This document shows, in pieces, positions 3,101-20,400 of a stretch of DNA of 64,000 bases (positions are counted from its first letter, which is position 1; each line of letters starts with the position of its first letter). The notes beneath the pieces are model-generated. The model was not told where the DNA came from, made no database searches, and saw nothing but the letters and a program-made list of their open reading frames with translations. Source of the DNA: Beroe forskalii (lineage: Eukaryota > Ctenophora > Nuda > Beroida > Beroidae); assembly GCA_011033025.1 (NCBI GenBank), contig WFMF01000031.1:806001-870000 (forward strand), read 5' to 3'. The position numbers and the translations under genes were made by a program.

Positions 3101-3587
3101 ATTTATTCAGTACTCACTTGATAGGAACGAGATCTACACCAATGATGAGGGATGAAACTGGCATGAACTTGGCAGCCACTTGGCACCAGCCCCCAGGGGC
3201 TGCACACAGGTCTATACAGACCCGTGAGTTCTCCAGGAAGCCGAACTTCCTGTTCAGCTGAATCAACTTGAATGCTGACCTGGCTCGGTAACCTGAAGGG
3301 GAGGTAAGGAGGGAGTGAGTCATGTTGATAGGAGAAATGGGAATCCAGTGGAGCTGAATAACCTAATGGTCTAGGTAAAACCTTGAATGATGACTTGAAT
3401 TAAATGTTCCCGAATGAATCCATACTAAAGATGGTTCATTCATAGGTGCAACAAATCCGGACTCTCCAGTGGGTTCAAGTCTACAACCGTAGTAATGATT
3501 GATGGTGTCATCTCACCCACCTGTCTCCTTAGCTAGCTGGTAGAACTTATCTTTACGAGCCTTTCCAACCTTTTGCTTCTTCCCCAT
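142..3587 (-). CDS. FTSJ3: FTSJ3/SPB1-type rRNA 2'-O-methyltransferase, 5' part (3' end beyond window)
   Basis: This gene encodes the AdoMet-dependent methyltransferase that modifies pre-60S rRNA in the nucleolus (Spb1 in yeast, FTSJ3 in animals). Exons on the minus strand are 3587-3521, 3292-3118, about 2961-2804, 2666-2473, 1712-1599, 849-723, 542-446 and 244-142, and more follow outside the window. The start ATG gives [23 protein letters not shown], the typical opening of the family. Exon 2 carries the RrmJ/FtsJ fold with [15 protein letters not shown] (AdoMet loop). Exon 3 has LNDGAPNVG with the catalytic Asp, and exon 4 has [14 protein letters not shown] with the catalytic Lys. Later exons are acidic and Lys-rich, as in the Spb1 C-terminal region. 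All exon phases match. Oddity: exon 3 has no AG acceptor where the frame requires one (AA at 2963-2962). The family call is firm; the last exon boundary is tentative. Confidence 0.93.
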
Positions 3588-4797
3588 TGTGGAGGCTAGT
3601 ACTCAATTAGTTAATTTAATACATTAAAGTTGGAAGATAATAATAATGATAAATATCCATCAAATTTTAACTTGAACTCAAATAATTTGAGCGGTAATTT
3701 TTCAAGCGATAATTGATGGAAATATTATATACAAACTTCCAAAGGATAAATAGAATGCCCATATGTTTGAATTTTTGGATTTCAAGAAATGGATCAGCAA
3801 TAATGAATACAATACATAATAGAAAATAGATTATTTTCATTTAGCAAAAATGATTTTCAATATTGGGCAGAACACAATTACATTTTCCTGTTCAAACGCA
3901 AGCATATCAATAGCAATAATTCAGAGCTTAAAATTTGGCTTAATCTATGTATCTATAAGCTATATCAGACGTATCAGTTAATCCAACTAAGAAGAAACTT
4001 GAAAAGTTGAAATACTATCAACTCGAAGTACAATCACTGACACTATTTCAGAATTTTTTCTTGAAAATCAATATAACATTTTTATTGAAAGCTTATGTAG
4101 GGAAATAAAAGGTGAACATTCAATATTTAGATAAATTTCGGCTCTTATTATTGAGGATATCAATGAAAATATGTCGCAAGTAGCTTATAATTTCACTAAC
4201 AATATAGGAAACATATAATAATATGAATTAATTTGAAACGAATTTGAGTGAATAAACATAAAATTGTTGTTTTATTTTGCATGTTTATTCCGAACAACAG
4301 CAGTTTCAACTCTTCTAAAATAAATCGGAACCCAGCAGAAACATTCTTCTTTTTAAACAAACATTAATAACAATAAACGAATAAAATATCAAAATTCATG
4401 CTTCCATATGACTTCTTATCTTTTTCAAGATTTATCGATGACACTAATGTTTCTAATACAATATCTACATGTTTCATTGATAAGCTTCGATTCAAAAAGG
4501 TTAACACGAAGTTAATCTCTTTTCTGGTTCAACGGAAAAAGTTCAAATCTCAGTACCTACGGCACTATGCAGTTAATTTACTCCAAAATAGATATATAAC
4601 AGCAATAGATGATAATAATTATACTACTATTATGAAAGTTTTAAGTGGCGTTTACTTTGTAATAACAGCATACAGCAGATAAAGCTTTTGTTTTTATTTC
4701 AAAATTTGAGGTTTTTGTACTTGGATAAATTAGTTTGATACTCAGTGTTAGCAATAGAATACTCACTGTTATCTTATAAGCGTTCACATCTTACAAG
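3588..4797. other. AT-rich intergenic stretch, no gene recognised
   Basis: This lies between the FTSJ3-like start and the 3' end of the bHLH gene. An open frame at 4398-4682 (plus, 94 aa) has no recognisable domain or splice context and may be chance in AT-rich DNA. No RNA gene or transposon end was seen. Confidence 0.5.
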
Positions 4798-5112
4798 CAC
4801 GTGGCAGCATGTGACAAGACGCGCAGCACGTGACATGACGCGCAGCACGTGGCATGACGCGCAGCACGTGACATGACGCACAGCACGTGACATGACGCGC
4901 AGCACGTGACATGACGCGCAGCACGTGACATGACGCGCAGCACGTGACATGACGCGCAGCACGTGACATGACGCGCAGCACGTGACATGACGCGCAGCAC
5001 GTGACATGACGCGCAGCACGTGACATGACGCGCAGCACGTGACATGACGCGCAGCACGTGCCATGACGTGCAGCACGTGACATGGCGCGCAGCACGTGAC
5101 AAGGCACTCAGT
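4798..5112. repeat. 19-bp tandem array carrying 16 CACGTG E-boxes
   Basis: The unit is CACGTGACATGACGCGCAG. CACGTG starts at 4827 and recurs exactly every 19 bp to 5093 (15 copies). One CATGTG variant sits in register at 4808 and one extra CACGTG lies at 4798. Read on the minus strand most units give GTCACGTG, the preferred flank for USF/TFE-class factors. The array begins 7 bp past the stop codon of the USF-type bHLH gene, so it lies in that gene's 3' UTR or immediate 3' flank. It is GC-rich in AT-rich surroundings. Open frames through it come from the repeat and are not genes. Confidence 0.95.
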
Positions 5113-5118
5113 ACGCTA

Positions 5119-8100
5119 CTAGTTGTTGATGCCGGTGAGGCTGGCAATGCTGTGGTTGAGGGGCTGCTTGTTGTCTCCCTGCTCCGGGTCGGGGGACAGA
5201 GTGTCTCGGTAGTTCACCCCGGACAGGATCTCGTTACTGCTGCTGTACGGCGGCGTGAAGCAGTCACTCCCGAAACTGGGGATTTTGAAAGAGATTATGA
5301 ATGTGAGAGAATTTCATTTGAGTTCAAAGATGAAAAGGAATTCTTGCCAAAATTTTGCCTCCCAATGCCAGTTGTAACTTTGTGAAGGATAATTGCTTTG
5401 ATATTGGTACCTTGTATCCTCTGAAGCCCTAATCCTGGTATTGACCTTGTATCCTCTGAAGCACTGGTTTTGGCACCCACCTGGTATCCTCTGAAGCACT
5501 GGTCAGGTAGATGTCCCCAGCTTCCACATCGACCATTGGGTGTTTACCATCATCCTCCTCTCCCTCCCCAACCACAGAGTAGGGCTGACAGATTTGAGAG
5601 ATGGAGAAGTCTGTGACATTCGTGTTCTTAGTGGAGAAAAGCATTAAATCACTGTACACTATCCAGGGAAAAGGAATTGAGCCACACAATCATTTTATTT
5701 TCAAGCATCTCAACCCCAATTTTTACAGAATGCCATCAGATACTAACTTAGTGGGAGGGTTATGTGACTTGGCAGGCACTACAGGAGTAACACTGGTTAC
5801 TGGTGTCATGGTCACAGGGATAACAGTAGTCTGATCTACCACTGGAATGAAGCACTGAGTGGCAGCCCCTGACACCGCTACAGCAGTGCTGTTAATCACA
5901 GTCCCCTCCGAGTTTACTACTTGTAGGACAGCAGGGGTAGTAGTTGCTTGGTGAACTCCTACCATGGTGCCACCTTGAGTCACACCGACCATACCACCCT
6001 GTGTCACACCAACCACAGGGGTGGTGGTTGCCTGGTGCATTCCAACCATACCACCCTGTGTCACCCCAACCATTCCTCCCTGTGTCACACCAACCACTGG
6101 GGTGGTGGTGGCTTGATGCATTCCAACCATGGTGCCACCTTGCTGTACTCCAACTACAGTTGCAGTAGTTTGTCCTGAATATGACGAGGAATGAGAGTTA
6201 AATTGACTGGGAAAAGCCATTTTGAATGGTACCAAGTATTGAAATTGTACATCGATAGCAGCCAGAATGCAAGTTGGCCATTTTTGACACTCAAAGGCTT
6301 CTGTGCAGTGAAATAGGCATCCCAGATGGCTGGAAACAGTCTTATATGAAAGAACTCATTGATATCTATCATTTGCAACAAAAATTATCAAAATCCGACC
6401 TTGCGTTGAGATTTTATGAGGTTAAAACCACCTAAAAATTAAACTTTTCGATTTGTGACATGCGACTCGATTTTTCCCTCACAAAGAGCTCATAACTCAA
6501 AAACTAAAAGAGATACAGCCTTGGGACCTATCTCAAAATTCGAGAAGACCCTCCTACATAAGAAGAGTCTTCACTGGAAAGGTCAAGTCCTTCGTGGCGG
6601 TTGGTTGAGGTTATCAAAGGCGATTATGCTGCCAGCGAGACCGGCCTTCTTAACCTCAATATCCAACACAGAAGAGAAACCAATCCTACACCAAACTGTA
6701 GTACCCATGGCAGCTACAAGTTGACATGGATAGATCCTGGCTACCTGCTTTACTTTTTTCCGTGGTCTGGTCAAAGAGGCGGTATGCTGTAGCGCTAGAG
6801 ACGACCTATTATTCCCAGAGGGAGAGGGCCTGACCTGAAGTTGTCTTACCAACTTGTAGTACCCATGGTGGCTACAAGTTGGTGGCATTAAACTGGTCCT
6901 ACCTCTTTATGTTGTCCCTCAGGGGTTAATCTTAGGCCCGTTTTCCGAAAAACCGGGTTTTTGGATGTCGCGACACAAATTTAGCCTCAAGACCACAACA
7001 GAAGCCAATGAAAACATAATTTGTTACCAAGATGAAGCTGAAACTATCAGGATCACCTCAAACCAAAATTTTGCACAATGGGATGAATTTGTGGCTCTCA
7101 GGTGAGGTTAAGCGATGTCCTCCCGGGAATTTCATCTTAAAATTTGGCCTTGTTTTTGCCTCAAATGAACAACACAAGGTCAGAAACTTCCAACTTTGAA
7201 CCAAGGAAGTATATTCTGACCTCTTGATTAAGATTACATTTCTTTAAGAGGACTGAAGCACCTCCATGAGGTTAAAAATGGCTTAAAACTGTAAAATCCA
7301 GGTTTTTCAGATGTCGCGACACAGTTTTAGCCTCAAGACAGCAACAAAAGCCAATGAAAACAGATTCTTGATGGCAAAATGAAGCTGAAACTGTCTAGGA
7401 TCACCTCAAACCCAAATTTTTTTCACAATGGGGTGGATTGGTGGCTCTCAGGAGAGGTTAAGTGACTTCCTCTCGGGGATTTCATCAAAATTCAGGCCAT
7501 TTTTAGCCTCAAATGGACAACGCAAGGTCAAAAACTCCCAAATTTGACCAAGGAAGTATATTTTGACCTTTTGATTGAGACTGATAACTTTGGGAGGACT
7601 CAAACACTTCTTTGATGTTTGAAGTGGCTAAAAACAGTAAAATCCAGGTTTTTGAGATGTCGCGACAAAATTTAGCCTCAAAACAGCAACAAAAGCAAGT
7701 AAAGACATATTCTTGATACCAAAATGAAGCTGAAACTGTCTAAGATCACCTCAAATCAAAATTTTACTCATTAGGATTTGTTGGCAGATCTCAGGTGAGG
7801 ATAAGTGTCTTCCTTCCCATGTTTTTATCAAAAAATTGGATTTTGTGTTAGCCTCAAATCGACAACGCAAGGTCACAAATTCCTAAATTTTGACCTAAAA
7901 GGTGGATTTTGACCTCCAGATCAAGAAAAAATACTTTGGAGGACTAAAACACTCCTTTGATGCATTAAATGGCCAAAAAGCTGTGAATTTAGGCATTTTT
8001 GCTCAAATCAGCCTCATATTTAACCTCACAGTTGCCACAAATAAGGTAATATCATGTTCAAAAAATTTTTTTGGTCACCACAGATGTCCAAACTAACTTT

Positions 8101-11100
8101 TTATGTGAAAAGATTGGCATTATAACCTTTTTGAAAAAATGATGTATAGTGTGTCCCGTTTAAGTTCGTAAATTTGAAATACACTCTGCATCTACTGCAA
8201 TAGAGATAAAACCCTAAATGGTACTGTAGATTGGAGTAAATGGATGAACATTTAGGCATATCTTGGCCTGATTTGGTTTTTAGAAGTTTGAGTCCATATT
8301 TCTTCACGTTGTCTGGAAGTGTGAAAAATACATGTTATTGAAACGTGCATTTGAGGTCAACACTTTGAAAGATTCAATGGTCGTCCAGGAAGCAACCTGG
8401 ATACCACACCAAAATTTTACCTACCCTTGGTACTCTCCAGTGTATCAATGAAATATTCTGTGACCATGGAACTGCTCATGACAGCGGAAACGACGGGAAT
8501 CATCGATCAAAGAAGCTGAGATGAAAAGTGTGCAAACCTCGTTTCAAATAACCCAGCTCCCGTAACTTCAAAAAACATCAACCAAATATAATTTATTGAA
8601 GCTGAAAATTTCTACGATTGTTCGTCTGAGAATACTGATGGAAGCCCATGAGGCAAAATTTCAAATCTGATTGAAAAACAAGCAGAGGAAGGCCTAGTTT
8701 GCAGCCTGTAGGGGCATGCTTAGAGAATAGCGCATATTACCTTAAGTTTGTTTCCCGGCAAATCATGGTTCTACAGTCATGGGATATCCCAGAATTGGCA
8801 TCAATATTTTTGGACGTTTAACAGGGACACTGTTCAGCCTTTTGGAAGTCGGTTAACACCTATTGAAGTCATGGTTTGAGGCGCTTTTAGCCCTAGAATC
8901 TTCATTTTCCTTAATTATTCCACGAAAATGGCTCCCACAACAAGGTTAACGGGCATATTCACTATGATTATCTGTCCTGGTTTTTGCGTCAGCTGATGTA
9001 GAAACACATGCTGAAGTCGTCATGGTTCATGCAAGTTAGTAGAACACCTCAAATGGCTCTTAAAAATCGAGCCATTATTGACATGCATTTTCGAAGAAGA
9101 GCAGTAAGGAAACACATCTTCGTGTCATGGCCTCCCTACTCCCAAGATTTGACTCCCGTTGATTTCTGGCTATGGCTGACACTCTAAAGAAACATCTTCA
9201 ATGGAAAACAATAGCCGCTTACCACTATGACTCTCCTGGAACGAGCTGTAATGTGGGGATTCAAGAAACTACAAAGGGGTAATTTTGCTCATTTGAAGCC
9301 TTAAGTTGAGAGGCGATGGACAAGTTGTGTCGATAACAACGGTTATAGAAGTTAATTAACCATAAATGTTCATCATTTTACTCTGAAATGATGTGTGAAA
9401 TTTGTCCATAAGTCAATTTTTAAGAATGAAAATGTAACCTTAAAATTTACGAACTTAAACGGGACATAGTATATAAATAAGCCAATGTCACAAATTCCTT
9501 ACATTCTGGCTGCTATCAATGTGTAAAGATTGTAAATCCATGAAAGGATGGTGGGAGTTCTCTAAAACTAAGTCACAATAACTAGTTACCTCCCCCAGGC
9601 ACTTCAACAGTGACAGTCTGTGCTGTTGGTCCAGCTGTTTGCATTCCTTGAGCGTTTTTAGTGGCAGGCTGGGAGGGTATTTGGGCTGCAAGAACTGGTT
9701 GAGTGCCAACAACAACCTGCTGCTGACCTATGAAGATAAGGGAAGTTGATTGAATTCGAATCTTGAAATGAGCTAAGGGTCCCTTAAAAAGGGATATCAG
9801 GTAAAAATATGAAATGCTTCAAAGAAATAAATAGCTGAAGGAAACTAACTGAAAAAGGAATACAAGTTCAATTGACAGAAAATTCACACCTTGTGGCCCC
9901 TGAATGACAGATCCAATCTGTAAGGGGTTCTGGGGGCTTTGATTACCCCCTGATTCAGGGGTCAGCAGAGAAGGGAACTGACTCAGTACCAGTGGGGACT
10001 TGAAGTGGAATGTTGGCTCACACATCACCGGATTAGAAGACATGGTGTTCAGAGGAACAGCAAAGTGAGGTAAACTCCCATGAATCATCATGACCACAGG
10101 ACCATTCTCCCCTGCACCAGCACTGGGGTTTGTTGGGGCTGTGCTGCTGCTGCCGCTGCTACTATGGGAGGTGCAGCAACTATTGGGGTGCTGCTGGCCA
10201 TGTACACACCTCTGCCACCTAAAAAGAACAGGAGTTACAGCAACCTTGCCCTGTCTCCAGCATTAAACAGTACAGTTTTTTAACATGAATGTCAATAAAT
10301 GTTATTACACAATTGAATGTGTTCTGGACACAAAGCACTAAATTGAGATATTCACCATTTTCTGCAGGTATGGTTGCTTGCAGATATGTAGGTACAGTGT
10401 ACAGAGTTTTATTGTTGTTGGCAGTAGTAACAGTGTTATCTGCCCCAAGGAGGGCTTGGATTGAGTGTCCATTGCTCTTCAAAACACCTGTGTCTTTAAT
10501 CTGAGGGATTTGTAATACAATAATGACTGACATTTGAAGATCATACTGTAGACTATAGTGCACATAGAACATGACATATACTACATGCTGAACAGTTTTT
10601 CAAGTTTTCAAAGATTTTATAATAAGACATCAATCATTTCTAAGTTCACACTCACCTGAACATTGGTGAAGACTTGGTGTGTTGTTGTTAAGATGGGTTG
10701 ACCATTAGTAGCTGTGTATGCAGTGGCAACATTGTTCAGGTTGGCAGGGGCTTGTTGTACTCCAGATTGTGTTTGTAGCTTCAACTGAGTAAACCCATCA
10801 TTTCAAAAACAGTAGTAGTAGAAGTAGTAGCATGTTCATGAAAACATGTCAAATAGAAAAATAAATTTCACAATTCTTATAATTTATTAGCAGTTTGCAA
10901 CAAAACCATTTTTCTTGAAACCTGTATAGGCTGTCCAGTGAGCATGGGTTGTGCAGGTACAGTTGATGGATTATTTGTAGCAGCAACAATAGGAACAGTT
11001 GTATTGTTTGTGGCCATCATGGGTACTGTTATCAACTTCTGCTTCTTTGGCTTCTTTGGTGCAGTAACTATTGTCTAAGAGGGAAGAACTCATCGGTAAT

Positions 11101-12274
11101 TAGTGAAAATAACTTGTCTAGAAATCATAAAGATCAAACATGACAAAATCAATAATCATATTCAGTGATAATACCTACTGAATATTGTTGAAGGTGATAA
11201 TAAAATTAATAAGGTAAAATATAGAATATACATCTGAAAACACTTTTCTGTAGCCTACTGGTAAATTTGGAGTTGATGAAGCTTTTGTAAGATTTGACAC
11301 AGAAGCTCTATCCAGAGTGGGAGTCATTGTTGTGTCCTCTCCATCACTGCCTGAGGATTAAATACATCACAGGTACAAATATTGAATGAAGTTTTTATAA
11401 AAGTTTTCAGACAATCTAAGACACTTAAATTTATCATTATCATGACCATTTATGTTTAGTTATCATCTTCAAACTCAAAGACAAGTATAACAAAACTAAC
11501 TTGATGACTGTGATTTTTCATTTCTGTTCTTATGTATTGACATATTCAAGCTCCATGCTCCTTTGCTTAAATTTTGTGCTTCTTTCAGAAGATTCAAGTA
11601 GTGAGCATTCTCAGATGATAGAGATTCCACATTTTTGGTCAGCTTGATTACTTCTGCCTTGAGAGCTTGAACATCATCAGGCAAATCTTTCTCTTGCTTG
11701 AGAAATTCAATGAAGTTAACTGTCTTCTCAAGAATACAGTTTTTACTCAGCTTTCCATTGCATTCAGGAACAAGAGAACAAAGTCTCACTATCCACTTAT
11801 TGATCTTGTCTTTCCTTTTACGTTCAGTTTCATTGTGAATTATTCTCCTTTTATCCTCATCACTGGCATTAGGATTAAGGGCTGGAATAGTCGCTCCAGC
11901 ACTGGTCATAATATAGTATGGAGTTGTGCTTCCAGTTTTGGAAGAGACTGAATATGGAGACCTAAATACAGCAGTCCCAGGTATCTTTGTTGGTGCTGAA
12001 AGGTGTAAGAATAAAAAGTTTTATCTATGTTTCATATGTGTTGTTTACATATGACTTTCTTAGATATCACAAATCTTACAAGCCACTATCTAAGGTAAAA
12101 CCATGGAAAATTTTGATCACTGTTACCCAATTTTCGAAATTATATGCTTTTTTATATGATAGGGATGATGTGACTGTTAATAAAATACTGAATAATCATA
12201 TTACCTCTATTCCTTTGGTACTCTGGTGTACCTTCATCAACAGGGGTTGAATCTGAGAGTAGTTTGTCTGACAT
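5119..12274 (-). CDS. USF-type bHLH-leucine zipper transcription factor, 11 exons
   Basis: A nuclear E-box-binding regulator. Exons (minus): 12274-12205, 11995-11501, 11350-11232, 11074-10922, 10784-10656, 10500-10356, 10218-9890, 9727-9590, 6174-5748, 5651-5481 and 5275-5119 (TAG). All phases agree if one base is missing from the C4 run at 10109-10112; the product is then about 777 aa. The bHLH spans about residues 72-125 with HNETERKRKDKINKWI. The basic region has the H and E of E-box binders, but Lys replaces the class-B Arg (R13). A leucine zipper follows (about 126-160). Downstream are a Lys-rich motif (KKPKKQK) and a long Gln/Thr/Val-rich region, including VGVTQGG/MHQATTTPV repeats, of activation-domain type. 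An N-terminal bHLH with a long tail resembles the USF3 layout more than USF1/2. The class call is firm; the exact orthologue is not. Confidence 0.85.
5404..5480 (-). repeat. Two intronic copies of the 3' end of bHLH exon 10 with donor-like junctions
   Basis: Exon 10 ends GCTTCAGAGGATACCAG followed by GTGGGT (boundary 5481/5480). Within the next 75 bp of intron the motif GCTTCAGAGGATACAAGGT occurs twice (plus coordinates about 5442-5463 and 5408-5427). Each copy keeps an AAG/GT junction that resembles a splice donor. Confidence 0.85.
6849..6882. repeat. Short inverted repeat (11-bp arms)
   Basis: CCAACTTGTAG and CTACAAGTTGG flank a 12-base centre containing CCATGG. A related sequence lies near 6694-6723. 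It is inside the large bHLH intron; the surrounding 6175-6930 is otherwise unassigned. Confidence 0.6.
6935..8060. repeat. About 3.3 copies of a diverged 346-bp tandem repeat
   Basis: The motif GATGTCGCGACA starts at 6964, 7310 and 7656, a constant spacing of 346 bp. It is followed each time by a similar block (TTTAGCCTCAA, AGCAAC/AGAAGCC, AAATGAAGCTGAAACT, GGATCACCTCAAA, CTCAGG.GAGG). A fourth partial unit begins near 7965. It lies in the 3.4 kb intron between bHLH exons 8 and 9. Confidence 0.85.
8146..9474 (+). mobile_element. Degenerate Tc1/mariner-type transposon
   Basis: The ends are inverted copies of about 28 bp (TGTCCCGTTTAAGTTCGTAA at 8152 and its complement ending near 9467), flanked by TA-rich sequence as expected for TA target duplication. 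The plus strand keeps fragments of an IS630/mariner transposase catalytic region, reading SWPPYSQDLTPVDFWLW (about 9126-9176) and, in other frames, remnants before and after. Stops and frameshifts interrupt it, so it is inactive. It sits in the large bHLH intron. Confidence 0.8.
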
Positions 12275-12839: not shown

Positions 12840-13500
12840 TACGCAATCAAGTTTTCCCCTGTGCGCGTAACCAGGGCCCTGGTTAGGGCAAGGTGTGTGT
12901 ACGTGTGTGTAGATGCCGCAAACACAAAACAGGGTTGATGGATTTTTCCCATCCCTGCGCGCAACACTCGGAGGTTTGGAAAACGTTGTGTGCGCGGCGG
13001 AGGGTAGGGTACTAGGGTAACATCCTATCCTACAACGAACAGGGGTATACGGCCGTCATGGCGTCATCTAACCTGACCAGATGCTTTCGCGCGCGGCCTA
13101 CGGTTGCTAAACGCGTATATCCCTGTTATCGTCGCGCGGCGCGCTTCCTCAGAACAGGGAAGCGCGCGGCGCGTACACACACCTATGCGGGCTTAGGAAG
13201 GCCTACGGCTAAATCATTATTTCCGAGAACTAGAAGGGCCGACGAACGCACACAGAACAGTTGCCAGGCCCCATGCGCGCGCGAAAAAATATAGGGCAGC
13301 CGGGCAGACAGCTTTTGGCAACAGAATAGGGCAAGGGTATACGCGTTTAGCAAGTGGCAAGCTGCGCGCGTACGCACACCTATGCGAATTCGTGCACGTG
13401 CGTCGAACGACTAGTCATTCCTAAGCCCGCATAGGTGTGTGTACGCGCCGCACAACGCAAACAGGGATATACGTGTTTAGCAACACTGCCGTACTTACGA
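12840..13500. mobile_element. GC-rich fold-back element
   Basis: This block is rich in CGCG in otherwise AT-rich DNA. 13102-13200 and 13423-13487 are inverted copies (GTTGCTAAACGCGTATATCC against GGATATACGTGTTTAGCAAC; ACACACCTATGCGGGCTTAGGA against its complement). A segment at about 12937-13015 (GGATTT.TCCCATCCCT.GCGCGCAACACTCGGA, GCGGAGGGTAGGGTA) recurs at 31355-31465. It behaves like a non-autonomous inverted-repeat element; no transposase was seen. Confidence 0.65.
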
Positions 13501-14442
13501 GTACGGCAGTGCAGAATTCTATGAAAATGCAGTCAGGAATCTAGAAAGTTGAGATAAGACCTTTGACTTTGAGTTGTACAATTATTGAAACGCAGTTCTG
13601 ACATGATGAGCTCAAATAAAAAATCAGCCATATCATGATATTGAAAATGAACGTAAGAAAAACCGCATCTTTTCTCTGCGCTTCTTTTCTGCAAAATTGA
13701 TTAAGAAAACAGATAATCAGGTGATATCCTAGGAGTAGGTGCAAAGACTCTCATTTCATCTTCTATCGCTTCAGAGTCATGAAGCAACGACATTAACAAT
13801 AACACTATGCCAGTACTTAGCATGTCATGTGATTGCGTATCTGTATCATGCAGAGCTCATACTTCATGATCATTTCATTTGGTATCTCATCTCTCAGTAT
13901 CTTGGGAGGTGGGTACCAGACAACACCAAATACAATAAACTTTAAGCGCCGTATATCTCTTAAACGGCCTTTTTAAACAAACTTTCGACGCGTTACTTTT
14001 CACTGAAGAGCACACATGTCAGTAACACTCTCTCACTCGAAGTCCAATATTTTTCATTAGGTGCCTCATAAAATGAAAAAATGATATCCTTTTTGAAAAA
14101 GGATATCATTACTGAAAAAAAAAGTTTTTTTTTCCCCAGGTCATCATCAAATTTACAATGCATAGGCATGAAGAATAACAGCAACATACGAAGTTCTTAT
14201 TTCTTTCAACCTCATTCCACTTCCAGCAGTCCTAGTCTCAGTCAGTCTTTGCTTCCTATTTGTATATCCTTCAGTATCAGTTAGTGAACTAGTGATTAGT
14301 TTCACATGTTGATGTATACAGTAATCCCACCACTGTAATTTCTTTGTTCTCTACCCCACTCAAGTCTCGGGTTTGTCCATGAGTCCGTTGTACGGCAGTC
14401 TGGGCAGCTGTCTGGTGCAGTCATTGTTCTCCTTGACAGCCT
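13501..14442. other. Intergenic sequence between bHLH and Kv genes with a perfect palindrome
   Basis: No gene is seen. 14080-14110 is a perfect inverted repeat with 15-base arms around a single G (AATGATATCCTTTTT and its complement). It is followed by a shorter A9-G-T9 palindrome at about 14115-14135. These lie in the 3' flank of the Kv gene and could form hairpins in its transcript if the 3' UTR is that long. Confidence 0.7.
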
Positions 14443-17400
14443 TCACCCACCCTCACTCCGGGACACGTTGTTAACTCCTCCATCGTACGGAATGTAGGGT
14501 CGACACACGGCCATGTGACGCAGCTTCCGCGTCATCTCCTTGTTCGCGTTCAGCTTCTTAATCGTGAAGGAGTCTTGGAACTTGGAGATGATGATGGTCA
14601 TGGGGAAGGCAATGACGACGATGCCGAATAGAACGACCATGCTGCCAGCCAAACGTCCAACCATCGTTCTGAGGAATCGACAGTAGGACTGCATATTCTA
14701 CACAACGGGAAAAGAAATCATTTCAAATCAGAAGCATTTTGAAAAATGCAATCAAAGATTCAATCAGCTATAGAATGAGAAATTCTAATATGAATTCCTG
14801 AAGGAATTAAGATACTGATGTTTGATGAGAATTATACAAGACATAGTCTATTACTCACTTTGGATACAAGTCTCCATAGCCGACAGTGGTGACAGTGACA
14901 ACAGCCCACCAGCACCCGTGTAGAATGGAGTTGAAACCGGTGGAGTTTAGCACAATGTTTCCTGATACCAGGTCTTCCTGAGGAGAGGATACATCATACA
15001 CTGCAGAAAACACTATACACATTCTATATTATACACTGCAGTCTATACAATACATTGCAAAATGCACATTGCACAGTGAACTTACATCATTACATCACTA
15101 CGGTGCTCTCATTTTGAGAGGGGGTCTTGAGGTCAATAATCACTCACTTTTGGTACATTAAACTCAATGAACATGCAGGAAATTAAGCCCACATGTTATT
15201 AAGCACCATGAAAATAAGCCCTTTTAGTTTCGGCACATTGAAGTTTGAACTCAATGAACATACTCACTTTGGGCACATTGAACTCGATGAAGTACATGAT
15301 GGTTCCAACTAGGAGGATCACAACGGCTACCACCCCAATGAGAACAACAAACTCTTGTTTGGCTGACGATACCACCTGAAAATGGTGTTACGTTATCATG
15401 GTAACCTTGAGGGTTCTGGCTTACCATGGCAACGCCACTACTTGCTACTGATGACATGGTCAATGTTCAAATCATTGCAACGGTCAGTCAGGCAGTGTTA
15501 CCATGGCAACGGTCAGACAGTGTTACCATGGTAATATTAAGATTTTACAAAAATAGAAAGACGTACACTTCACCTCCATGACTTCTGTGAGCTGGGTGCT
15601 GTGTCTGACTATCTTGAGGACCCGCACAACCCGAACTACTCGACAGATCTGAGGCGGGGAATCTGTTACCCTCTGAGCTATTGGTTGAGTAAAACATACC
15701 TAGCATGGACGAGAAACAAAACCGCAAAGGGTTGAGGGTTATAAATTATAATGGTCAATATTTCATAAGTTGAGAAAGGCTTGTGTCAAATATCTTAAAT
15801 ATCATATAACTATCATATAACAGTCCTTTTTTTGAACAAGAAACAAGAGTCGCTTTTTATCTTTCATATTCATGTTCGTGTAATCGTGTAAATGTGTATT
15901 GTTAAGTCAATGAAAGGTAAAGCTAAAAGCACTCAGGTGTAAGTGTAAGTTCAGTGTATCACAAGTGTTGCGAGTTCGAGAAATGAGAATCATTCTGAAA
16001 CTTCCGATAGCACCATGTATCACTACAATGTTTGTATATGTACGTGTGTTACAGTATCACGCACGTAGTCGTACTATAATGGTGGTCGTGTGGAAGTTTC
16101 AGAATAAACGGAGATCTCAGAACTCGCAACATCTAGGTGATTTCGATAAATTCAAAGATCAGTTCATCACGCCATCACATAGCATTATCAAACCATTATC
16201 ATTTTACAACCGTGGCGTCTCGACCTTTTCACGCGCGTCGTAATGCACCGCGAACGAAAAGGTCGGAACACCACAGTTATATTATTGCCAGTTGAGAATA
16301 GTTAAACGTGGGAATAAAACTTTTTGACAGAACGGAATTTGGACTCTTCAACCATTTTTGTGGAAACTGATCTTTGAATTTAGCTGCATGGGATGAGAAA
16401 GAGATGACGAGTAAGCGAAGGGATACCAGCGGAGTGATATAAAATGTGCTAAGAGAGAAGCAGCCCATACCTATGACAGCTGTATGTGTCGCATACCTAA
16501 ACATTCAGCATACCTATACAGTCAGCGCACAGTGCTTACTGCTCCACAAGGGCGACGATGTGTCAGTGACCCGGGACAGGAGGGACACTGGAGACCCGGA
16601 CAGGAGGGACACTGGAGATCTGGACAGGAGGGACACTAGAGACCCGGACAGGAGGGTCACTGGAGACCTGGACAGGAGGTACACAGGAGACCCGGACAGG
16701 AGGGACACTGGAGACCCGGACAGGAGGGACACTGGAGACCCGGACAGTAGGGCACTGGAGACCCGGGACAGGAGGGACTCAGGGACACTGGAGACATGGA
16801 CAGTAGGGACATTAGAGACCAGGATAGTAGGAACACAGGAGACCCAGGTAAGAGGGCCACTGGAGACCCGGGACAGGAGGGACACTGGAGACCCGGACAG
16901 GAGGGACACTGGAGACCCGGACAGGAGGGACACTAGAGACCCGGACAGGAGGGACACTAGAGACCCGGACAGGAGGGACACTGGAGACCCGGACAGGAGG
17001 TACACAGGAGACCAAGGACAGGAGGGACATTGGAGACCCGGATAGGAGGGACACTGGAGACCCGGAAATGAGGGACACAGGAGACCCGGACAGGAGGGAC
17101 ACTGGAGACCCGGGACAGGAGGGACACTGGAGACCCGGACAGGAGGGACACTGGAGACCCGGACAGGAGGGACACTGGAGATCCGGACAGGAGGTACACT
17201 GGAGCCCGGGACAGAAGGGACACTGGAGACCCTGACATGAAGGACACTGGAGACCCGGACAGGAGGGACACTGGAGAACCTGGACAGGAGGGACACTTGA
17301 GACCCGGGACAGGAGGGACACTGGAGACCCGGACAGGAGGGACACTGGAGACCCGGACAGGAGGGACACTGGAGACCAGTACAGAAGGGACACTGGAGAC

Positions 17401-20400
17401 CCGGACAGAAGGGACACTAGAGATCCGGACAGGAGGGACACTGAAGACCCGGACAGGAGGGACACTGGAGACCCGGACAGTAGGGCACTGGAGACCCGGG
17501 ACAGGAGAGACACTGGAGACATGGACAGTAGGGACATTAGAGACCAGGATAGTAGGAACACAGGAGACCCGGACAGGAGGGACACTGGAGACCCGGACAG
17601 GAGGGACACTGGAGACCCGGACAGGAGGAACACTGGAGACCCGGACAGGAGGGACACTGGAGACCCGGACAGGAGGGACACTGGAGACCCGGACAGGAGG
17701 TACACAGGAGACCCGGACAGGAGGTACACAGGAGACCAAGGACAGGAGAGACACTGGAGACCCGGATAGGAGGGACACTGGAGACCCGGAAATGAGGGAC
17801 ACAGGAGACCCGGCCAGGAGGGACAGTGGAGACATGGACAGTAGGGACATTAGAGACCAGGATAGTAGGAACACAGGAGACCCAGGTAAGAGGGCCACTG
17901 GAGACCCGGGACAGGAGGGACACTGGAGACCCGGACAGGAGGGACACTGGAGACCCGGACAGGAGGTACACAGGAGACCCGGACAGGAGGTACACTGGAG
18001 AACCTGGACAGGAGGGACACTTGAGACCCGGACAGGAGTTACACTGGAGCCCGGGACAGAAGGGACACTAGAGACACAGACAGGAGGGACACTGGAGACC
18101 CTGACATGAAGGACACTGGAGACCCGGACAGGAGGGACACTGGAGAACCTGGACAGGAGGGACACTTGAGACCCGGGACAGGAGGGACACTGGAGACCCG
18201 GACAGGAGGGACACTGGAGACCCGGACAGGAGGTACACAGGAGACCCGGACAGGAGGTACACAGGAGACCAAGGACAGTAGGGCACTGGAGACCCGGGAC
18301 AGGAGGGACACTGGAGACATGGACAGTAGGGACATTAGAGACCAGGATAGTAGGAACACTGGAGACCCGGACAAGAAAGACACTGGAGACCCTGACAGGA
18401 GAGACACTGGAGACCAGTACAGAAGGGACACTGGAGACCCGGACAGAAGGGACACTAGAGATCCGGACAGGAGGGACACTGAAGACCCGGACAGGAGGGA
18501 CACTGGAGACATGGACAAGAGGGCCACTGGAGACCCGGACAGGAGGGACACTGGAGACCCGGACAGAGGGGACATTGGAGACCCGGACAGGAGGGACACT
18601 AGAGACCTACACAGGCGGGACACTCGAGACCCACATAGGAGGGACATTGGAGACCTCGACAGGAGGGACTTGGAGAAGGGGATTAGAAACCCTGGCAGGG
18701 TTATGAAAGGCCACCAATGGACTGGGAAAGGATTTTCCCGAGCCGGACCACCAGTGGCAAGGGATGATTCTTCATAACTAGATGAGGAAAATGACGCACG
18801 AAGAACAAGGCTATCGGGATTAGCAATAAAATGCCCAGGAATGCGAAAAGAAGGCACACCAGGGGCAAGGCTTATGCTATAGGGATTAGCAAGAAAATGC
18901 TCCGGAATGCGGAAAGAAGGCACCCTGTCCCAAGGTCACTCAACACGCAGCTTTTGACGGTTATGCACCATAGACCTGTGTATAACTGTGGGTATAGTTA
19001 GATAAATCCCGACTATTACCACACCTCACTCATCAACCCGCCAGGTGAACAGAGACCCCAATCATACCATATATGGCATAATGGCGTCACCGCCCACCTG
19101 GAGGGGTCACTGAGCTCGGTGCAGTGAAACAGTGAGGGAGATTAACTAAAAAAGACAAATGAAGGAAGCAGGCTAGGTACCCTTAGAACCTTGAGAGCAA
19201 AAAATTGCGGCGGGGGCAGGCCCCGGGTGGTGATGAAGACGACCAACTCCACGTAGAAGGGGGCCACTGCCAGGATGTCCATGATGTTCAGGGGCTTCGC
19301 GAAGAACTTCCTCTTGTTCGGCCATGTGGAGAACCTGGGAAAAGTGTTGGTTTGTGTGCAAAATCCACAGACCATACGCCTCCGCTTATGGGAGAGGCGG
19401 TGGTAGCTGGGGGAGGGGATGGGTGGGGTAGTCTGCGGAGCTGTGTCAAATTTGCTCTTTTACAAAATTATCCATTTTCATGGGAATGGGAATTATGCCT
19501 AATCATTTGTTTCAAAATAGCTCATTTGAACTAAATCTGATAAAAGTAGCAAACCTTATAAGGAGGTCTAGGGAGAAGAAGAGGTTGATGAAGACATCTA
19601 TGCCGTAGATCATGATCTTGTAGGGGACCAGGGGCGTCCCAAAGGGGTCGTCAAAGTGCTTCTGGTAGTCTGGGATGGTCTCTATGACCAACATGGAGAT
19701 GGTGGTGAGGATGCAGAGCAGGTCTATCCCTCCCCAAACCATGCTGAACTTGCTGTAACTCGGGTCTGTGATCTGGAGGGGAGGGAGAGGGGTTAGGGTG
19801 GGGCATGCAATGAGGGGTTTGGATGAGGCATGAGGGGTTAGAATGGGCAGGAGGGGTTAGGATGGGGCATGAGGGGCTGATATGATATGTCATGACGTGA
19901 TACATTGGAAAAAGATGGAGTTGTAGCTTTCTAGTTTAGGATACAGACTATACTTGAAGGTAATGGTGAAGTAGCACAAAATATGAGGGTAAATGGTAAT
20001 TTCTACACTCTAAAAGAATCTAAAGAAAAAAGGGAGAAGTTCAGGTTGCGGGAAAATAAAGTGAAAATTGAGTGTTGAAGGAATTGGGATGTTCACTTGT
20101 GGGAACTCTGTAGTGTTCGAAACCCCTTCCACAAATTAATGTAGATTTAATGAAGGAAACTGATCAAATTACAGCCACGTGCGAGTCACGAGACATTGAA
20201 TTTGATACTAAGATTAGAGTAAGGACTCTATGAATACCTAATTGCATTAGTAGTACGACGCAGGAACATTTGGAGTACTGATAAAAAGCTGGAAAAAGGA
20301 GTCTGGCTGATAAAAGTTCAGGTGGACGTGAAAGGGGTGTTCATCATGTGACGATCAGCTGACGTGACGTCATGGCTTTACCAAGCGGTGATTGGACGAA

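Follow-up and report, generated by a model that had tools for sequence, protein, structure and literature searches.

CACGTG is the plant G-box kind of E-box, and several described systems bring this hexamer, or repeated factor sites more generally, into settings comparable to the one reported here. One of these is hTERT-VNTR2-1st, an intronic human minisatellite. Like the array described below, it is a tandem minisatellite in a gene, and many of its repeats hold the CACGTG of MYC-family factors; it differs in that its host gene is, according to the accessible part of the report, MYC regulated and not bHLH encoding, and its unit and species are unrelated (PMC2915984). In another early-branching animal, Amphimedon queenslandica, G-box-like E-boxes are enriched around transcription starts, but there they are a promoter motif, and the portion of the source available describes neither arrays nor clusters at USF genes (PMC4773876). 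Short insertions at factor sites frequently prove to be tandem duplications, by which homotypic clusters gain further copies of the site, although these data come from the human germ line, and the factors named in the text at hand are CTCF, NRF1, and PRDM9, not E-box binders (PMC8559717). Finally, in the holozoan ribosome-biogenesis E(CG) regulon, CACGTG lies ≤600 bp from the 5' end in about 50 to 90% of the genes, as given in the accessible text (PMC2570694).

The locus that we compare with these systems belongs to the ctenophore Beroe forskalii and was analyzed within a stretch of 64,000 nucleotides (contig WFMF01000031.1, positions 806,001 to 870,000; here, the window), whose features are collected in Table 1 with positions counted from its first letter. 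It is an E-box minisatellite in the same sense as hTERT-VNTR2-1st, being tandem, having a CACGTG-holding unit, and lying in or beside a gene. The first-pass annotation had reported sixteen CACGTG sites, 15 at exact 19-bp spacing plus one more, and both the motif count and TRF bear this out; the array itself thus stands, while the right edge given for it (5112) falls slightly past the TRF edge. The unit preceding 4827 carries CATGTG in place of CACGTG. Most units had also been said to provide the form GTCACGTG, and 13 of the 16 sites do so; T/A-flanked CACGTG is usually taken to favor USF and MITF over Myc. The middle of the array consists of 8 consecutive identical units (4899 to 5050) with variant units on either side, i.e., it is homogenized, which is the usual look of such a tandem array.

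Table 1. Positions of the array and of neighboring features in the window
Feature	Position	Strand	Remark
19-bp minisatellite, unit GCAGCACGTGACATGACGC, 15.7 copies, 96% matches	4804..5101	.	TRF
15 CACGTG at exact 19-bp spacing	4827..5098	.	Motif count (site starts 4827-5093)
Sixteenth CACGTG, 29 bp ahead of the regularly spaced ones, within a truncated unit	4798..4803	.	
Last coding exon of the USF-family gene, ending ...LNHSIASLTGINN, stop TAG 5119-5121	5119..5273	-	Acceptor by eye
First AATAAA downstream of the stop, without an earlier ATTAAA	4693..4698	-	Use of this signal would make the array part of the 3' UTR
Part of the bHLH-zipper exon, HNETERKRKDKIN, Lys at basic position 13	11499..11909	-	
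Presumed USF-family promoter, rich in CpG and GCGCGC; holds a single CACGTG (13395)	12901..13500	.	
FTSJ3/Spb1-like gene (FtsJ domain) on the downstream side, start codon by eye	3585..3587	-	1.2 kb beyond the array

Because the units are copies made by tandem duplication, their 16 CACGTG represent one event, not sixteen. The window holds 25 CACGTG against 9.6 expected, a count reached by none of 100 shuffles, whereas the window without the array holds 9 against 9.0 expected and shows no enrichment; the excess is therefore due to the array alone. A serious rival, which we regard as a real possibility, is that the array is a neutral minisatellite, one among the many tandem repeats of this genome, with a CACGTG that is coincidental to its unit and has no effect. 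The window alone yields 70 overlapping TRF rows, including several much larger arrays, and a homogenized middle is as expected of slippage or unequal exchange. Among the array units, changes occur at 1 of 96 positions within CACGTG and at 9 of 208 outside it (P = 0.12), so that the core is not significantly spared and selection on the sites is not demonstrated. Against neutrality, a single 19-mer unit would hold CACGTG by chance in only ~0.27% of cases at the background density of the window. The CpG observed/expected ratio of the array bin is 1.43, compared to ≤0.30 in 16 of 24 gene-body bins and 0.41 to 0.71 in the other 8; this high value may perhaps reflect just the youth of the copies. 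CCAAT and TGACGTCA are absent from the 300-bp bin of the array.

The gene beside the array had been called a bHLH-zipper gene, a call that we can uphold: its product contains an HLH domain (PF00010; 45.6 bits against a cutoff of 20.7), its best PDB match is USF2 (E = 3.1e-15 with a profile), and 1an4 ("upstream stimulatory factor") is also among the closest structures. Of the 8 local bHLH peptides searched with it, the closest is that of USF-a, one of the two USF genes introduced below, and by best match the gene belongs to the USF family. It spans about 12.3 kb down to 5119 on the minus strand (intervening exons by eye), and its presumed promoter (12.9 to 13.5 kb) has a CpG observed/expected ratio of 1.33 to 1.37. 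Seven relatives, 68 to 97% identical, were recovered from the protein collection; a search for their contigs confirmed none in 329 pattern stretches of genome contigs and found none in 199 of viral contigs. Of the three residues of a group B basic region (His5, Glu9, and Arg13), the first two are present, but position 13 is Lys in all 8 aligned sequences (the gene and its seven relatives), so that the caveat attached to this residue by the first-pass annotation proves to be real. Judged by the alignment, Lys13 is a subfamily trait, and presumably the gene resembles vertebrate USF3. According to the part of the source available, group B proteins invariably have Arg13, the residue that specifies the central base (PMC8431614); given an invariant Lys13, binding of the array by the product of its own gene is doubtful.

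The E-box nearest the stop codon ends at 5098, 20 bp away, and since the first poly(A) hexamer comes only at 4693, the array is probably within the 3' UTR. It might, then, exert an effect at the mRNA level, through the structure of the 3' UTR, for which one could cite that none of the three minus-strand frames meets a stop within it and that its transcript is able to self-pair. We consider this extremely improbable, as the fold has a z score of only -0.66 versus dinucleotide shuffles, 27 of 100 of which fold equally well, a value that also suits a neutral repeat, and a scan of positions 3500 to 6300 against Rfam at gathering thresholds produced no match.

The USF-family gene is followed on its strand by the FTSJ3-like gene, which we take to be a ribosome-biogenesis gene. 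The array could accordingly be an upstream E-box element of this gene, read by Myc/Max: the orientation is the same, the distance is 1.2 kb, the array (GC 0.63) is the sole GC-rich stretch upstream of the gene in surroundings of GC 0.27, and a CACGTG near a gene of this class, where the motif is common, is what the locus shares with the E(CG) regulon in the accessible part of its description (PMC2570694). We nevertheless judge this reading improbable. The fly flank consensus (MAACACGTGYG) fits 0 of the 16 array sites, although the opposite "anti-flank" form likewise fits none of them, and the array lies beyond 600 bp from the ATG, though the transcription start may be nearer to it. A 5' UTR intron of the FTSJ3-like gene that would reach the array was considered on account of a GTGAGT seen by eye below the array, yet no donor in 3600 to 5130 scored above the cutoff (>4); this donor test is weak because a stricter cutoff gives only 5 donors in 14 kb.

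The same genome encodes bHLH factors that retain Arg13, namely, those of two USF genes (USF-a on contig C405 and USF-b on contig C1033), a MITF-like gene, and Max, the best PDB matches of these local proteins being USF, USF, MITF, and Max, respectively. The USF-b exon begins inside the basic region, and Arg13 is within its visible part. In all, 24 HLH matches were found in the genome, apparent duplicates included. Two nearly identical Max exons lie on different contigs (C99 and C368) and represent either a duplicated gene or uncollapsed haplotypes. Both Arg13 USF genes have a dense CACGTG cluster on their 5' side. The USF-a cluster, which lies 1.25 kb upstream of the bHLH match, has 12 CACGTG within 321 bp at spacings of 12 to 63 bp and includes 4 CCAAT/ATTGG; the USF-b cluster, which lies 2.0 kb upstream, spreads its 12 CACGTG over 541 bp and includes one TGACGTCA and 8 CCAAT/ATTGG. 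Alignment between the two is limited to short words, and both are nontandem and irregular, in contrast to the strictly tandem array of the window. The USF-a cluster was partly visible in the 3.2-kb locus before extension, whereas the USF-b locus was extended before any cluster was visible.

As controls, we used 15 regions of ~3.1 kb (one of them, L057, of 2.85 kb) located upstream of the exons of 8 kinase and 7 homeodomain matches, taken from the top of the 135 kinase and 104 homeodomain matches, respectively. The maximal CACGTG count per 350 bp was 12 and 9 in the USF clusters, compared to 6 in the best control, 4 in the next, and ≤1 in the rest, so that 0 of 15 controls reach 9 or more, in a control set that is small and with a threshold of 9 per 350 bp that was chosen post hoc. 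On the available upstream side, CACGTG numbers 0 for MITF, 0 for Max, 1 for SREBP, and 0 for the bHLH gene of C882 (710 bases to the contig end); a cluster is thus not a general property of genes for CACGTG binders. Among the 21 other bHLH loci (~3.1 kb centered on the exon; four of the 21 also further upstream), two have smaller clusters (4 and 5 in 350 bp) and one has 3. Because most of these 21 loci were scanned around the exon only, the fairer test sets the two USF genes (2 of 2) against the upstream controls (0 of 15; P = 0.007), the comparison with all 36 loci (P = 0.0014) being less fair. Within the limits of these low numbers and of a threshold fixed after the data were seen, dense clusters therefore accompany USF rather than CACGTG binders in general.

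Similar E-box groups elsewhere in the genome, whose existence was one half of the refuting condition that the first-pass annotation had set for its own proposal (the other half being the lack of any cluster in close relatives), are indeed found. Counting triplets (three copies at 10- to 40-bp spacing, where overlapping triplets rather than loci are counted and tandem arrays inflate the numbers), CACGTG gives 5,890 genome-wide, more than every control hexamer counted: GTGCAC, the reverse of CACGTG, gives 1,992; CAGCTG gives 1,866 and its reverse 196; and CTCGAG, which has the same composition as CACGTG, gives 361 and its reverse 200. The first 2.49 Mb of contig C1 contain 28 separate CACGTG clusters, from which we extrapolate about 2,400 in the genome; no CAGCTG or CTCGAG triplets on C1 are among the matches listed. 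When each cluster is assessed by its first triplet, 25 of the 28 look nontandem, and two pairs among the 28 (760753/2350422 and 1004156/1207134) each resemble copies of one dispersed element. With ≤1 mismatch, the composite GTCACGTGCTGCGCG has 93+132 matches, whereas the reversed pattern has 4+6; the exact form of the composite accounts for 17 of the matches listed, 11 in the array and 6 elsewhere. DNA searches with the array recovered E-box arrays of other periods (21 bp at C25 and C837, 18 bp at C358, and 15 bp at C314), and a 22-bp minisatellite with a unit near ACCCTGAGAGACATGGCACGTG (C680:533500-543400, positions 3438 to 5700) packs 98 CACGTG into 2.3 kb and is far larger than the array of the window. 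Among the matches listed for GTCACGTGCTGCACG, there are 11 inward-facing pairs, 3.0 to 6.6 kb apart by eye (e.g., C110:429830/433367, C236:477683/481079, and C252:263512/267378), which are perhaps the ends of a DNA transposon family carrying E-boxes. Four CACGTG in 47 bp at 13- to 15-bp spacing, with TGACGTCA nearby, are also seen in the stretch immediately before the window (C370:796101-806000, positions 4636 to 4682).

The array is therefore not unique, and E-box clusters are common in the genome that holds it. The much bigger E-box minisatellite of C680 is in keeping with a neutral repeat, whereas the excess of CACGTG triplets over all control hexamers counted, and the position of the array next to a USF-family gene, given that the two others identified both have dense clusters, argue against one. 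The same inventory weighs on the suggestion that the array is a putative decoy titrating the factor or a putative gene loop, to which the many sites in little space would lend themselves. Sixteen is a small number compared with all the clustered sites that the genome contains, and the 98 of C680 would titrate more; loop-anchor motifs of other early animals are GC rich, GTGT, or transposon ends, with none given as CACGTG in the accessible part of the source (PMC12221973). We hold either form of this suggestion to be very improbable.

The interpretation that we favor, with moderate confidence, is that of a young 19-bp E-box minisatellite that follows the coding part of a USF-family gene, either within the 3' UTR or in the downstream flank, and is possibly bound by Arg13 factors. 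One composite site (GTCACGTG plus CTGCGCG) would have grown into the array by tandem duplication, yielding a CpG-rich stretch that the USF-a, USF-b, and MITF-like proteins could bind. If active at all, this stretch would serve as a homotypic E-box cluster feeding local transcription, and cross-regulation inside the USF family would be more likely than self-binding by the Lys13 protein. The self-regulation originally proposed survives, then, in a USF-family version, supported by the Arg13 USF genes with their dense upstream clusters; in its literal version it is countered by Lys13, by the single CACGTG of the gene's own presumed promoter, and by the similar clusters elsewhere. The self-binding story is thus weak, and the USF-family story is stronger than a reader of the sequence alone could know. 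Auto- or cross-regulation of USF is plausible at USF-a and USF-b, on the strength of their clusters, and unproven via the array of the window. Among the literature matches on USF autoregulation with CACGTG, none, judged by title and the start of the abstract, deals with USF controlling its own gene, and among those listed that name sponges or ctenophores, CACGTG appears in none.

A further-reaching version, which we think rather unlikely, is that the USF family forms an auto- or cross-regulatory circuit of its own. Each of the three members found would then have a dense homotypic CACGTG cluster (two 5' and one a young 3' minisatellite), in a genome that has built very many E-box clusters by local duplication and through E-box transposons, and the array would be a freshly amplified arm of the circuit. 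If USF genes do control themselves via E-box clusters, the irregular clusters of 12 and the tandem array of 16 would form a natural series for the way in which repeat growth makes or tunes enhancers; this would also bear on how one promoter-type motif became so often clustered in one animal genome.

Several other features of the window were recorded. A tRNA scan of the whole window found none. Without the array, the window has 31 GCGCGC against 1.2 expected and 6 TGACGTCA against 0.8 expected. The large intron of the USF-family gene (6300-9480) contains a 346-bp tandem repeat (6948-7962; TRF) and an apparent decayed mariner-like element near 8100-9480 (by eye), and one of its coding exons contains, at 5932-6130, an 81-bp (27-codon) repeat of 2.4 copies that is rich in Thr, Gln, Val, and Gly. 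A voltage-gated K+ channel gene occupies 14400-19700 on the minus strand (pore TTVGYGD by eye), and between its exons lies a 24-bp minisatellite of 2.1 kb (16568-18676; TRF).
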